IMG/VR virus record: IMGVR_UViG_3300015373_000010
Coordinates: 1 to 44,652 of that record
Direction: 5' to 3' (one strand)
Length of the DNA stretch: 44,652 bases
Source of the DNA: a virus
Position 1 is the first letter of the stretch. Each line of letters starts with the position of its first letter. A model generated the notes under the pieces. That model made no database searches and was not told the origin of the DNA. It saw only the letters and a list, made by a program, of their open reading frames with translations. Below, one piece after another: positions 1 to 44,652 of the stretch. The position numbers and the translations under genes are program-made.

Positions 1-9
1 CCACACCTA

Positions 10-209
10 GCCCGGCCATGCCCAGCCACGCCATGCGTGCAGTCAGGGATTCCAAGCCTTGCCCAGCCACTCCATTCCACGCTTTGCCGGGCCACGCCTG
101 GCCAGGCTCAGACCAGACCCGCCCCGACAAGCCAAGCTCTGCCACGGCTGCACCTCGCCAAGCCTCGCCGCGCGCAGCCTCGCTCAGCCGGGCCTAGACT
201 CGCCTGGCC
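10..209 (-). repeat. Left GGCNN pentanucleotide array (GGC on the minus strand)
   Basis: On the plus strand GCC recurs every 5 bases. The first block starts at 10, 15, 20, 25 and 30. The main block runs 56, 61, 66 and so on to 146, then continues at 157-207 after a one-base phase slip. The two bases between cores vary freely, and core substitutions are mostly single transitions (GCT, GAC, TCC). Bases 38-55 break the pattern. The array begins inside the last codons of the leftward gene 194..709 and continues as its 3' trailer, so the transcribed strand reads GGCNN. Open frames through it give only low-complexity Pro/Ala/Arg sequence. No unit is an exact repeat of its neighbour, so this is not a simple microsatellite. 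Confidence 0.9.
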
Positions 210-709
210 GCGGGTGGGTGGCCATCCTGGCCGGTTTCGAGTTCCTCGACACGCTGCTGGAGTGAGTTGATCAAGTCTTCGTGGCGGGCGAGTGCCACCT
301 CGTGGGTGCTGACGGCCATCAGCAGCAGCGTCATGCCGCGCCGCACCTGAGACCACTGCTCGCGCTCCATAGCGGTGAGTTCGGCCAAGTTCGTAGCATC
401 CACCACGTCGGAGGCGAGTTGGATTTGGCGTTCGGCTCTGTCTTTGTGGTCTTCGGCTTTGCCGACGTGCTGATTGGCGAACAACACTCTGTAACCTTGG
501 CCACGCTCCACGGCGACGTCGCGGTGGTGATGCGAGCGGAGTTCGCGGGTGGCGCGCGGCATGGCGGCATGCACCAGGGCGCGATCGTCGGTCTCCAGCA
601 ACTCCAGAAGCTCGGCATAGCGGACCATCTCTCCGGGGGGTGTGGAGGCGAGTCTGTCGTAGACCACCCGCCAGTAGGCGCGCCCGTCACTGCGCTTGGG
701 CTGGAACAC
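194..709 (-). CDS. Early phage protein: winged-helix-like N-terminus plus coiled coil
   Basis: 171 residues. Residues about 8-75 have a helix-turn-helix/winged-helix look (YWRVVYDRLASTPPGEMVRY, then a helical stretch and a GYRVL strand), as in a family of phage early proteins I recognise but cannot name. The second half is helical, with a C-terminal coiled coil around HEDLINSLQQRVEELE. It starts 3 bases after the stop of the RAMP-like gene, so the two are probably co-transcribed. Its last six codons lie inside the left GGCNN array. A DNA- or RNA-binding partner of the upstream protein is plausible from context; the function is unknown. Confidence 0.75.
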   Translation of the reverse strand: MFQPKRSDGRAYWRVVYDRLASTPPGEMVRYAELLELLETDDRALVHAAMPRATRELRSHHHRDVAVERGQGYRVLFANQHVGKAEDHKDRAERQIQLASDVVDATNLAELTAMEREQWSQVRRGMTLLLMAVSTHEVALARHEDLINSLQQRVEELETGQDGHPPAARRV

Positions 710-712
710 GCC

Positions 713-1297
713 TCACGCCTTCTTGACGTCGGACTTGAAGCGTCCGTAGCCGATCACTCGTCCATCGCCCAGGCCTTCCACGATGCCGGCTTGCTCCACG
801 ATGGCGCGGAAGCGGTCGAAGTCGAGCAGTTCGGTGACCAACTCCAGTTGGCAGTCAACCTGCCAGCGGTGGAAGATCGGGCGCGTGGACTGGACCTTGC
901 CGCGATTGATGCTGACCATCGTCGTCCACACGTACTCGGGCTGCTTGAAGAGTTCGGTGATCTCGCGCGGGCCGTCGTAGACCAGCGGCACCTCGACCTC
1001 CAGCGGGATCACCGCGCGCTCGATGGACTTGCCCTGACGGGTGGCCGTGCCGGCCTGCCGAAAGCAGCGGCGGATGTTGGCCGTGGGCATCACCGGCCCG
1101 GCGTGCCCGTTGTGGCTGACGTACAGGGCGCCGAACCACTGCAAGCGCGCCTTCTCGCGGCGGTCAACCTCCGTCATGTTGCTGGCCTTGGCGTTGATGA
1201 CCGCGATGGCCTTGGCGAAGTCGTTGTCCGGGTCGGCCAGCTGCACGTTGTGGACGACCAGCGGCGTGGTTCCGACCAGCCGCACGTTTACACGCAT
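713..1297 (-). CDS. Cas7/RAMP-like phage protein
   Basis: 194 residues from the ATG at 1297, chosen over the upstream in-frame start at 1327 because GGAGATAGTTCC sits directly before it. The first strand, VNVRLVGTTPLVVHN, resembles the opening strand of RAMP ferredoxin folds. GPVMPTANIRRCFRQAG sits where RAMPs carry a PG..LRG-type segment. The C-terminus GLGDGRVIGYGRF fits the RAMP glycine loop GxGxxxxxGxG exactly. Proteins of this type (TPLLMHN near the start, glycine-rich near the end) are widespread in phage early regions and, to my knowledge, uncharacterised. I infer single-strand nucleic acid binding. No HD or other nuclease motif is visible. The gene has its own candidate promoter and is bracketed by GGCNN arrays. 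Confidence 0.8.
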   Translation of the reverse strand: MRVNVRLVGTTPLVVHNVQLADPDNDFAKAIAVINAKASNMTEVDRREKARLQWFGALYVSHNGHAGPVMPTANIRRCFRQAGTATRQGKSIERAVIPLEVEVPLVYDGPREITELFKQPEYVWTTMVSINRGKVQSTRPIFHRWQVDCQLELVTELLDFDRFRAIVEQAGIVEGLGDGRVIGYGRFKSDVKKA

Positions 1298-1357: not shown

Positions 1358-1400
1358 ACAAAGAAAGCCCCCTCGCCGGGGTCTACCCGGTCCGGGGGCT
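1358..1400 (-). terminator. Rho-independent terminator of the early operon trailer
   Basis: On the minus strand AGCCCCC pairs with GGGGGCT (1400-1394 and 1372-1366). Inside, CCGGG/CCCGG pair around a TAGAC loop, with a 3x3 internal loop between the two helices. The hairpin is followed by TTTCTTTGT. It would stop leftward transcription that had read through the middle array, just before the promoter of the RAMP-like gene. Confidence 0.7.
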
Positions 1401-1426: not shown

Positions 1427-1561
1427 GGCGGGGCTCGGCCAGGCTCAGCGTGGCAAGGCTAGGCTGTTCCCGGCTCAGCGCGGAGCGGCACGGCCAGGCA
1501 TGGCGTAGCAATGCGTAGCGTTGCGCGGCGGGGTTTGGCGAGGCCCGGCAAGGCTTGGAAC
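1427..1561 (+). repeat. Middle GGCNN array, block 1
   Basis: GGC or a one-base variant (AGC, TGC, GGT, GGA) starts at every fifth base from 1427 to 1557, about 27 units in a single unbroken phase. The spacing dinucleotides vary. The block is framed by the near-identical words GGAACTTTAGAC (1402-1413) and GGAACTTCAGAC (1557-1568). It is non-coding and lies downstream of the ATPase gene. Relative to that operon's transcript it reads NNGCC, opposite to the left and right arrays. Confidence 0.9.
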
Positions 1562-1583
1562 TTCAGACACATCGCCAAAGCAA

Positions 1584-1694: not shown

Positions 1695-1733
1695 GCAGGA
1701 TACCCCCCTTAAAAGGGGGGGGTAGTATCCTGC
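1695..1733. terminator. Strong inverted repeat between early operon and middle array
   Basis: GCAGGATAC (1695-1703) is repeated inverted as GTATCCTGC (1725-1733). Inside it, a run of six C faces a run of eight G across TTAAAA, giving a long stem with a small bulge. A weaker outer pair is CCGAATC (1684-1690) with GATTCGG (1761-1767). No T tract follows on either strand. It may be a factor-dependent or bidirectional stop, an RNA 3'-end stabiliser, or a boundary of the array. Confidence 0.55.
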
Positions 1734-7044: not shown

Positions 7045-7401
7045 GTGGCGACAGCGGTCTTTGAGGCGAAGCGGCAGTACGCCGAGATCGAGCCAGAACT
7101 CTGGGTCGATCAAGAAGCCCTGTGGTGCAAGCTGAGCGCGGCGCTGGTGGAGTACGCCAGCAACCTGCGCGATGCCACCCGCCCAGCCAAGCGCAAAGGG
7201 GGTCCGGGCCGCAAGCCCGGCTGGGGTGTGCAGCCCCAGGAAGTGCTGGCCCTGGTCGAGGAGCTGCGCGCCGCGCGGGCCAGGGGCGAAGACGTGCCAG
7301 CGGTCATCACCCGTCCGATGCTGGCCAAGGCCGTGGGCTGCTCGCTGTCTGCGGTCAAGCGCGCCTGCCGCAAGGCTGGGCTGCACGGCCACATCTCGTG
7401 A
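7045..7401 (+). CDS. HTH protein upstream of integrase
   Basis: 118 residues from a GTG at 7045. The middle is basic and Gly/Pro-rich (AKRKGGPGRKPGWG). The C-terminus, ITRPMLAKAVGCSLSAVKRACRKAGL, is a helix-turn-helix. It is the first gene of the rightward unit and lies opposite the early operon, so a lysogeny-control role is plausible. A perfect inverted repeat starts 6 bases after its stop. Confidence 0.7.
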   Translation: MATAVFEAKRQYAEIEPELWVDQEALWCKLSAALVEYASNLRDATRPAKRKGGPGRKPGWGVQPQEVLALVEELRAARARGEDVPAVITRPMLAKAVGCSLSAVKRACRKAGLHGHIS

Positions 7402-7406
7402 CCAAG

Positions 7407-7439
7407 CTCGGTATCAAGTCACCATTTGTTGATACCGAG
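7407..7439. repeat. 11-base perfect inverted repeat; possible attP arm or terminator
   Basis: CTCGGTATCAA (7407-7417) and TTGATACCGAG (7429-7439) flank an 11-base spacer in the gap between the HTH gene and the integrase. No T tract follows. A second small hairpin, GCCAGG/CCTGGC (7470-7486), lies downstream. The geometry (11-base arms, 11-base centre) would suit a tyrosine recombinase core or an operator. The attachment site is probably in 7402-7574, but no host half-site is available to confirm it. Confidence 0.45.
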
Positions 7440-7513
7440 TTGGGATTGCCGTACTCTCACGGCCCCGTTGCCAGGCGGTTCCTGGCCCTAAACACAGAGG
7501 GGATGCTGCAAAA

Positions 7514-7542
7514 GCCCCGGCGCCGTTCTAGCGGCCCGGGGC
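7514..7542. promoter_or_regulatory. Bulged hairpin in the integrase leader
   Basis: GCCCCGG, a bulged C, then GCC pair with GGC and CCGGGGC around GTTCTAGC. On the minus strand the hairpin is followed by TTTTGC, so it can also end leftward transcription. It lies 33 bases before the integrase ATG. The same architecture, including the bulged C, recurs before the HNH gene at 11189-11219. Confidence 0.6.
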
Positions 7543-7574
7543 AGGGCACCGTCCTCACGAGGAGTAGTCTCGCG

Positions 7575-8975
7575 ATGACCGTACAGGTCCGTTCTACCAC
7601 GCGCCGAAAGCGCCTATCGAAGACAGAGGCGAGCAGCCTCTACATCAAGCACCTGAAGTCCGGTCCGAACGCCGGCAAGTACCTCGTCTCCGCGCCGCAG
7701 TGCGAGAAGAACGAGCAGGGCCGCACCGTCTACAAGAACTACGGCCCGTACGTCCTGTTCGAGGATGCCGTCGCCAAGCGCGACGCGCACATGGCCGCCC
7801 AGAAGGAAGACGGCGCCAAGCCGGTCAAGCTCGGCCGCGAGGCCACGCCGATGACCCTGGACGACTGGGCCAGGACGCACTGGCTGGAGGTGCTGGTGCG
7901 GCCGAAGCTGTCGGCGACCACGTACGACCAGTACAAGGCGGCGATGGTCAACAACGTGCTGCCGGCCGTGGGCGACCTCGAACCAATGGGCAAGGTTGCC
8001 CTGCGCTCACTGACCAAGACGCGCATCGAGAAGTGGCTCACGGTGCTGACCGAGAGGTCCACCGTGTCGGTCGCCACGTACGCGCTGAAGCGCCTCAAGA
8101 CGTGCCTCCAGGCGGCGAGCGAAGACCCGGAAACGACCGGCCTCAAGGTCAACCCGGCGCGCTACGTCAGCCTGCCAGAGAGCGACGACGACACCGCTAA
8201 GGAGTACGAGGGCAGCCCGCTGGACGCGGGCAAGCTCATCGCGGCGGCCGGTGACAGCCACCTGGCGCTGCTGCCACGCATCGCCACCGACGGCGGGTTC
8301 CGCCGATCGGAACTCCTGGGGCTGCACTGGGAGGATGTGGACTGGGACAACAACCAGATCATCCTGCGCTGGCACCTCGTGGCCAGCGGCAGCGCGGCAG
8401 CTGCCGACCACATCACCGCCTTCCGCCCTGGCACCAAAGCCAAGCAGGGCAAAGGCAAGCGCAAGACCAGCCTCGACTTCGAGCGCGTCAACATGCCGCG
8501 CCGCTCGATGGAGGCGCTGCGCGAGCATCGTGCGCGGCTGATCGAGTACAAGCTCGGCTGCCGCGAGTGGGCGGCCAACGTCGGCAAGCCGGACGCGGTC
8601 TTCTACGCCAAGAACAAGCGCGACCGGACAGGCGCGTCGTACGTGGTGCCGGACCGCCCGGGCGACCCGAAGGCGCTGGTCTTTCCGTCGGCAGACGGCA
8701 CGCCGATGGTGCCGAACAGCCTCACCTCGTGGTTCGCGGGCGTGGCCAAGAAGGCTGGCCTCAACAAGACGCTGCACGACATGCGGCACGACTGCGGCAG
8801 CTTCATGCTGCGCGAGAACGTGCCGCTGACGGTGGTCAGCGCACATCTGCGGCACGCCAACACGGCGATCACCGCCGAGATTTACTCGCACATGCTGCCG
8901 GAGGATGCGCGCATGGGCGCCGACGCGCTCGACCGACTGTATGACCGCCTCGATGCCGAAGCGGTCGCGGTCTAA
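7575..8975 (+). CDS. int: Tyrosine-type integrase
   Basis: 466 residues from the ATG at 7575, set by GGAGTAG at 7561; the much longer open frame upstream is a shadow. There is a basic arm-binding N-terminus, a core-binding SAM-like domain around MTLDDWARTHWLEVLV to LKRLKTCLQAA, and a catalytic domain. The catalytic Arg lies in GGFRRSELLGLHWEDVDW, the HxxR in LHDMRHDCGSFML, the second His region in HLRHANTAITAEIY, and the nucleophilic Tyr in EIYSHM. It integrates and excises the phage at attP/attB and marks it as temperate. Confidence 0.95.
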   Translation: MTVQVRSTTRRKRLSKTEASSLYIKHLKSGPNAGKYLVSAPQCEKNEQGRTVYKNYGPYVLFEDAVAKRDAHMAAQKEDGAKPVKLGREATPMTLDDWARTHWLEVLVRPKLSATTYDQYKAAMVNNVLPAVGDLEPMGKVALRSLTKTRIEKWLTVLTERSTVSVATYALKRLKTCLQAASEDPETTGLKVNPARYVSLPESDDDTAKEYEGSPLDAGKLIAAAGDSHLALLPRIATDGGFRRSELLGLHWEDVDWDNNQIILRWHLVASGSAAAADHITAFRPGTKAKQGKGKRKTSLDFERVNMPRRSMEALREHRARLIEYKLGCREWAANVGKPDAVFYAKNKRDRTGASYVVPDRPGDPKALVFPSADGTPMVPNSLTSWFAGVAKKAGLNKTLHDMRHDCGSFMLRENVPLTVVSAHLRHANTAITAEIYSHMLPEDARMGADALDRLYDRLDAEAVAV

Positions 8976-40630: not shown

Positions 40631-40773
40631 GTCGATAACACGAGCAGGTAAGTAAGCATGGCAGTGACCTACGTGGCATGGCGGAGCAACCGGGCAACCG
40701 GGACCGCGAACACTGTACCTACCCTGCTCGTGTCTGCCGGGATTGGTCGCCCGGTACTGATGAGACAGACCAA
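40631..40773 (+). ncRNA. Type II hammerhead-like RNA, variant with long stem III
   Basis: Stem III is an 11-base perfect helix (ACACGAGCAGG 40638-40648 with CCTGCTCGTGT 40723-40733) closing a 74-base insert. C 40734 would be the cleavage nucleotide. Stem I is TGCCGGG/CCCGGTA with loop ATTGGTCG, then CTGATGA (40757-40763) and GAC pairing with GTC (40631-40633). Loop bases TTGGTC pair with GACCAA (40768-40773). It departs from the consensus in GATAA instead of GAAA and in its short stem II, so it may be slow or inactive. Confidence 0.6.
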
Positions 40774-40794
40774 ACAAACATTGGGAGTAGAACA

Positions 40795-41604: not shown

Positions 41605-41669
41605 TGTCGAAACGCGCCAGTAGCGCGTCTGTGAGGATTGACCGCCTCACACTGATGATGACAGGTCAA
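41605..41669 (+). ncRNA. Type II hammerhead ribozyme candidate 1
   Basis: In order: TGTC (stem II, 41605-41608); GAAA; CGCGC/GCGCG (stem III, loop CAGTA); T then cleavage nucleotide C 41629; stem I TGTGAGG/CCTCACA with loop ATTGACCG; CTGATGA (41652-41658); an extra T; GACA completing stem II. Loop TTGACC (41638-41643) pairs with GGTCAA (41664-41669) as a pseudoknot, as described for bacterial type II hammerheads. Predicted cleavage is between 41629 and 41630, 61 bases before the next ATG. The extra T after CTGATGA is a departure from consensus. Confidence 0.82.
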
Positions 41670-41690
41670 AACCATAGTGGAGTAGTCACA

Positions 41691-42540: not shown

Positions 42541-42604
42541 TGTCGAAACGCGCTACGGCGCGTCACGTCCGGGTTGACCGCCGGCGTCTGAAGATGACAG
42601 GTCA
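42541..42604 (+). ncRNA. Type II hammerhead ribozyme candidate 2
   Basis: TGTC (42541-42544), GAAA, stem III CGCGC/GCGCG (loop TACG), T, cleavage nucleotide C 42564, stem I ACG-(T)-CCGG with CCGGCGT around GTTGACCG, CTGAAGA (42588-42594; position 7 is free in hammerheads), an extra T, then GACA. TGACC in loop I pairs with GGTCA (42600-42604). Stem I differs in nearly every pair from copy 1 yet still pairs. The GGAGAGTAGTTCC leader of the next gene starts 3 bases later. Confidence 0.82.
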
Positions 42605-42619
42605 CTGGAGAGTAGTTCC

Positions 42620-44500: not shown

Positions 44501-44652
44501 GGAGTGGCATGGCGCGGACTGGCGCAGCCTAGCGCAGCATGGCTAGGCGGGGCTGGGCAAAGCGGGGCATGGCCAGGTATGGCCGGGCTGGGTTCGGCGG
44601 GGCGTGGCGGGGCTTGGCTGGGCTCAGCTGGGCAAGGCCCGTCGTGCTACGG
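44501..44652 (+). repeat. Right GGCNN pentanucleotide array (GGC on the plus strand)
   Basis: From 44501 the cores GGA/GGC/AGC/GGT start every 5 bases (44506, 44511, 44516 and so on to 44636) and continue as GTC and GCT to the end of the window, about 30 units in one phase. Spacing dinucleotides vary freely and no gene is present. The array is 3' of the rightward operon, so its transcript reads GGCNN. The window ends inside it. Confidence 0.9.

Follow-up and report, generated by a model that had tools for sequence, protein, structure and literature searches.

A probable VIPR system with outward-facing arrays in the genome of a tailed phage

The genome analyzed here (the window) is a complete virus record of IMG/VR, IMGVR_UViG_3300015373_000010, of 44,652 bases. 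It carries a gene for a small RAMP-like protein between arrays of GGYNN units, which raises the question of whether the protein and the arrays form one system and on what such a system would act.

An arrangement of this kind, VIPR (Viral Interference Programmable Repeat), was presented in a preprint of April/June 2026 (PMC13142463). VIPR loci comprise a RAMP-related protein, Vipr, and vrRNAs of alternating GGY and NN, typically with vipr and vap side by side, and are mostly phage-borne (PMC13142463). Vipr coats the guide RNA, the NN pairs recognize double-stranded DNA, leaving a one-base skip between them, and the outcome is transcriptional repression of targets in rival phages and satellites, with Vap1 enhancing the protection (PMC13142463). 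Further hallmarks of VIPR are a thumb domain through which Vipr touches its guide and a constant 3' tail behind the repeats. The window holds the Vipr protein with its glycine loop, the arrays, an adjacent vap and a phage location, and the locus very probably represents a VIPR system of a temperate tailed phage, which would repress target genes that most likely belong to competitors. Systems of this kind have been known since April 2026, and the window locus adds one from a divergent phage lineage whose arrays are laid out differently. As a form of RNA-guided DNA recognition, VIPR has come to light only very recently and may predate CRISPR; few systems have been tested, and the arrays of the 91 relatives gathered below are ready for comparison.

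The Vipr protein, the Vap accessory protein and their phage

The vipr frame is intact, with an ATG at 1297, a stop codon at 713-715 and a Shine-Dalgarno-like GGAG immediately 5' of the ATG (Table 1). Residues 3-191 of the product matched PDB 36pp_D, the 'SUSP1 Vipr protein' (E 2.1e-17). The product also matched phrog_4652 (E 1.2e-32), which has no assigned function and includes the Felixounavirus homolog; no Pfam family was matched, and the best informatively named viral model was a 'Cas system-associated RAMP superfamily protein'. Relatives were found in 126 phage records, mostly Felixounavirus-type coliphages and Salmonella phages, with Gordonia and Mycobacterium phages in addition. The protein ends in ...GLGDGRVIGYGRFKSDVKKA, and the C-terminal RAMP glycine loop noticed in the preliminary description proved real: the loop, GLGDGRVIGYGRF, is conserved in 50 aligned relatives, R180 being invariant and G175, D178, G185, R186 and F187 nearly so.

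An AlphaFold model built on the alignment of these 50 relatives (mean pLDDT 95, pTM 0.88) has an RRM/ferredoxin-like core with its first strand at residues 2-9, in agreement with the ferredoxin strand expected at the start of the protein. A Foldseek comparison of the model with the PDB as of April 2026 gave CRISPR RAMPs for all of the best 50 matches, mostly Csm3/Cas7 and otherwise type VII Cas7, Cmr, Cas6 and type III-D proteins (E 1e-5 to 2.5e-4, TM about 0.3-0.55). Class 1 Cas7 (Csm3) shares with Vipr the RRM core, the glycine loop and the fold, whereas VIPR comes without CRISPR repeats or a Cas operon and its two-base guide words are split by GGY. Of the earlier Cas7/RAMP-like assignment, the RAMP part stands and Cas7 proper does not: judged by its sequence match and predicted fold, the product is a Vipr, a RAMP with one RRM that does not belong to CRISPR.

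The downstream frame, vap, aligned with the vipr neighbors of actinophages and of Felixounavirus. Its product matched phrog_5926 (E 2.7e-4), whose core is the Felixounavirus protein VpaE1_086, likewise a vipr neighbor (E 7e-76). Homologs of vap were present in 54 of 97 loci, mostly immediately downstream of vipr. In the predicted structure (pLDDT 94) a winged helix is followed by long helices, and the weak Foldseek matches (E 0.05-0.1) included OmpR-type winged-helix DNA-binding domains; Vap is probably a DNA-binding protein.

An integrase gene (Table 1) and tailed-phage genes including those for the terminase and the major capsid protein place the locus in a phage or provirus. Since the terminase is nearest to those of Thermobifida and Streptomyces phages and the capsid protein to those of Arthrobacter phages, the host of this probably temperate, tailed phage was probably an actinobacterium. 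A RecT gene and an AAA_25 gene are neighbors of the locus.

Table 1. Positions of features in the window and, where a locus is named, in related loci
Feature	Position	Strand	Remarks
vipr	713-1297	-	194-aa single-RRM RAMP protein with C-terminal glycine loop
vap	194-709	-	GTG start at 709; predicted winged-helix domain and long helix; directly downstream of vipr
Array A1	1427-1556	+ (opposite vipr)	26 GGYNN units, ending GGCAAGGCTT then GGAA; run score 13
A1-A2 tail/spacer	1557-1583	+	GGAACTTCAGACACATCGCCAAAGCAA, by direct reading
Array A2	1584-1658	+ (opposite vipr)	15 GGYNN units, ending GGCAAGGCTT then GGAA; run score 12
Array A4/A5	54-209	- (vipr strand)	12 + 18 units around one 6-base unit, ending GGCAAGGCTT then GGAA; runs 209-150 (score 7.5) and 143-54 (score 6)
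Further array start	3-32	-	6/6 GGY units; severed by contig end
Array A3	44506-44640	+ (opposite vipr)	27 units; other contig end; run score 18, best of the window
GC-rich hairpin	1366-1400	+	between vipr and A1; fold z-score -3.3
Hairpin after A2	1695-1733	+	GCAGGATACCCCCC TTAAAA GGGGGG...GTATCCTGC; strong, by centroid structure
Integrase gene	7122-8975		
Hammerhead-like element	40704-40774	+	type II, 32.8 bits
Hammerhead-like element	41605-41670	+	type II, 43.4 bits
Hammerhead-like element	42541-42606	+	type II, 34.4 bits
First array, L007	4593-4682		
First array, L008	4593-4677		
Compact arrays, L015	5006-5628; 3249-3738		
GTTTTAGAGCTATG...CGTAGCTCTA, L014	about 330-400		near array loci
Minihelix elements, L004	3729-3910; 5190-5400		
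Minihelix elements, L002	5694-5750		
Minihelix elements, L005	2954-3020		
Minihelix elements, L003	3853-3910		
Minihelix elements, L018, L032, L040, L045, L047, L051, L055, L057			
Minihelices, L098	839-3301		

Arrays of GGYNN units in the window and around related genes

A scan for phased GGY with a period of 5 gave runs scoring 12-18 on the plus strand and 6-7.5 on the minus strand; no run exceeded 5 in any of 20 surrogates generated from the whole window by a second-order Markov model. The arrays that flank the vipr-vap pair face outwards, with the minus-strand ones at the left and the plus-strand ones at the right, so the gene does lie between inverted arrays, as first noticed. The start of A4/A5 overlaps the vap stop codon. 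The NN positions are nearly uniform in composition, i.e., hypervariable; among the coding frames, codon positions 1-2 of both strands fitted them best, and a uniform composition fitted better still, which is weak evidence.

The three array ends beside vipr that lie wholly within the contig have GGCAAGGCTTGGAA in common. No secondary structure common to these three ends was shown, and the tail motif had no other exact match in IMG/VR. The spacer between A1 and A2, GGAACTTCAGACACATCGCCAAAGCAA, resembles GGAACTTTAGAC, which stands immediately 5' of A1. The predicted hairpin after A2 is a candidate transcript end; it is without a T-run and hence no textbook terminator. A promoter and terminator scan around the window arrays found nothing.

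Three type II hammerhead ribozyme sequences were noted farther along the window, each directly 5' of a small phage ORF on the plus strand and in the orientation of A3. Only the one at 41605-41670 exceeds the Rfam cut-off of 37 bits. Hammerhead-interspersed arrays were reported in other VIPR systems (PMC13142463). The window elements lie 2-4 kb from A3 and not between arrays, and we do not claim them as array processors.

A protein-only scan of IMG/VR returned no Vipr relatives, whereas an alignment-guided scan gave a set of 91 (80 viral and 11 genomic). The neighborhood survey proposed at the outset had a clear outcome: GGYNN arrays occurred within 2 kb of vipr in 73 of these 91, compared with 0/91 surrogates and one of 51 unrelated phage contigs. 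In all, 232 arrays lay at this distance and only 2 farther away (density ratio 86). The near arrays were on the vipr strand in 218 cases and on the opposite one in 14, the latter only in L015-L017; a placement like that of A1, A2 and A3 is rare among the relatives.

The window Vipr groups with those of the IMG/VR contigs L007 and L008 (support 100/99) in a clade apart from Felixounavirus. These contigs are its closest relatives (Vipr 68% and Vap 62% identical) but differ from the window in carrying an array block between vipr and vap, on the same strand and with a GGGTTTT... tail, at a different place in the genome (terminase-portal). Their first array is common to both contigs and near-identical (TT AA AT CT GG TC AG AT AC TG TA). 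Its conservation hints at a target that is conserved as well, but it had no target match in IMG/VR.

Escherichia phage SUSP1 (Felixounavirus-like; PDB 36pp) resembles the window in full-length Vipr homology, in the phrog_5926 accessory gene directly downstream and in the several GGY/NN arrays flanking the pair. The published Vipr phylogeny has seven types, SUSP1 belonging to type II (PMC13142463). The window vap family agrees with SUSP1 (type II), whereas the window Vipr belongs to another clade, being about 31% identical to the Felixounavirus homolog and distant in the tree. The arrays differ as well: the window units are GGC, those of SUSP1 mostly GGT, and the window arrays are imperfect, reach 26-27 units and lie partly on the opposite strand. 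The short GGAA-type tail of the window contrasts with the long structured tail of SUSP1, and no pseudoknot like that of SUSP1 was found in it. The arrays of SUSP1 and P. fulva have 9-16 repeats (PMC13142463). The window arrays, being imperfect and mostly longer than this, may include decayed units.

The actinophage loci (Gordonia Trine and MakoManhole, Mycobacterium LittleE and the M. abscessus prophage BWHA-1) are similar to the window in their Vipr (32-38% identical), an adjoining vap homolog and GGC-rich arrays. Their arrays, however, lie on the vipr strand and are followed by a tRNA-minihelix, and neither trait was seen at the right-hand arrays of the window.

Proposed action of the locus and competing explanations

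Beyond the protein family, fold, arrays, accessory gene and co-occurrence in relatives observed here, RNA binding, the one-base-skip code, repression and phage control have been shown for homologs (PMC13142463), and by analogy we infer expression, RNA binding and targeting by the window copy, as well as the identity of its target. The outward-facing arrays would be transcribed into vrRNAs, each covered by several Vipr subunits whose glycine loop/thumb region would grip the GGY triplets. The NN dinucleotides, which vary, would jointly pair with double-stranded DNA in the form NNxNNx..., and the complex, once bound, would repress a gene there, most likely one of a competing phage, prophage or satellite, with the winged-helix Vap strengthening the repression. 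Of the two activities first suggested for the protein, the coating and reading of array transcripts finds its counterpart in the experiments on the SUSP1 and P. fulva Vipr (PMC13142463), while the coating of exposed array DNA is unsupported; instead, the ribonucleoprotein would read target double-stranded DNA elsewhere through NN with a one-base skip.

Targets were sought in two ways. When 253 arrays were compared locally and without gaps with 0.8 Mb of loci, no alignment with skip 1 exceeded 15 matched bases, and skips 0 and 2 yielded 1-3 chance hits. In IMG/VR, 8-dinucleotide seeds from A1, A2, A3 and A5 gave chance-like matches only, and counts of 7-13 per array, with the array common to L007 and L008 included, contained none that extended. 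The missing natural target is weak negative evidence, because seeds must match exactly in the IMG/VR scans and that database may lack the phages with which this one competes in its environment.

This outcome is nevertheless one of the observations that would fit a decayed VIPR-derived locus, in which vipr was kept while the arrays are degenerating relics with no current targets and Vipr perhaps binds RNA or DNA in general as part of the neighboring replication module (RecT, AAA helicase). The many non-GGY units (AGC, TGC, GTC, GGA), the one 6-base unit and the AAA_25 and RecT neighbors point the same way. We nevertheless regard decay as unlikely: the common GGCAAGGCTTGGAA ends have been retained, A2, the most regular array, holds its phase across 15 units with 13 perfect GGY, the vipr frame has kept its conserved residues, and similar long imperfect arrays occur in related clades (L012, L019, L025, L042). 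The opposite-strand arrays, the long imperfect arrays and the short tail could reflect either a sub-lineage trait or partial decay.

The arrays might alternatively be standalone DNA or RNA elements (packaging, replication or recombination sites, or a G-rich structural repeat) with Vipr as a mere neighbor, a reading suggested by their position at both contig ends and beside replication genes. It is made very improbable by the near-uniformity of NN and by arrays that stay within 2 kb of vipr even though the genome context of the two varies, from between terminase and portal in L007 to the tail region in LittleE. Hardly any weight can be given to a fragment of class 1 CRISPR-Cas, i.e., a phage-carried Cas7/Csm3 subunit beside an unrelated high-GC repeat. 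The Csm3 fold matches (E 1e-5, TM about 0.5) would agree with it, but no other Cas gene and no CRISPR array were found among the window genes and repeats examined, the full-length sequence match is to Vipr and to no Cas model, and the arrays track the vipr family across many phages.

Guide formats and tRNA-like elements in relatives

A VIPR system remains the preferred reading, and within it we tentatively propose that the window phage, together with L007-L009, L011, L014, L015, L017 and L018, may form a sub-lineage outside the experimentally studied clade with a guide format of its own, in which long GGC-type arrays, sometimes on both strands, would close with a fixed GGCAAGGC(A/T)(G/T)GGR-like sequence and have hardly any tail. 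In actinophage relatives, a tRNA-minihelix made up of an acceptor stem, a conserved GG and a T-arm would instead stand between the guides, maybe to be processed by host RNase P/Z. If this is true, RNA processing would have been recruited by VIPRs in several independent ways.

A very compact multi-guide layout was seen in L015 and L017, where vipr is surrounded on both strands by up to 15 pristine GGCNN arrays, the gaps of exactly 6 bases between them falling within a recurring GGCTACCTCA(R) junction. The sequence GTTTTAGAGCTATG...CGTAGCTCTA in L014 (Table 1) resembles the repeat/anti-repeat of Cas9 guide RNAs, which may be a coincidence.

The motif GTTCGANYC followed 26 of 259 arrays within 110 bases against 2.3 expected, mostly in relatives of the actinophage type, where the elements stand directly 3' of the guide arrays and their T-arm has a TTCGANT loop. 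A complete 5-bp T-stem is present in 17 elements, and every one of these also forms an acceptor-like stem of 5 bp at near-fixed spacing, with a conserved GG between the two. Among nine different elements all pairs form, 9 of 10 pairs show compensatory changes, and none of 500 shuffles reached the covariation score. The main text of the VIPR preprint makes no mention of tRNA (PMC13142463). The minihelices possibly serve in RNase P/Z processing or capping of guides, and the tRNA-like tails of actinophages raise a testable question about guide excision and capping. They are not exclusive to VIPR, because six such minihelices, about 300-600 bases apart, occur in L098 where arrays are absent; these would belong to a wider family of intergenic tRNA-like phage elements.
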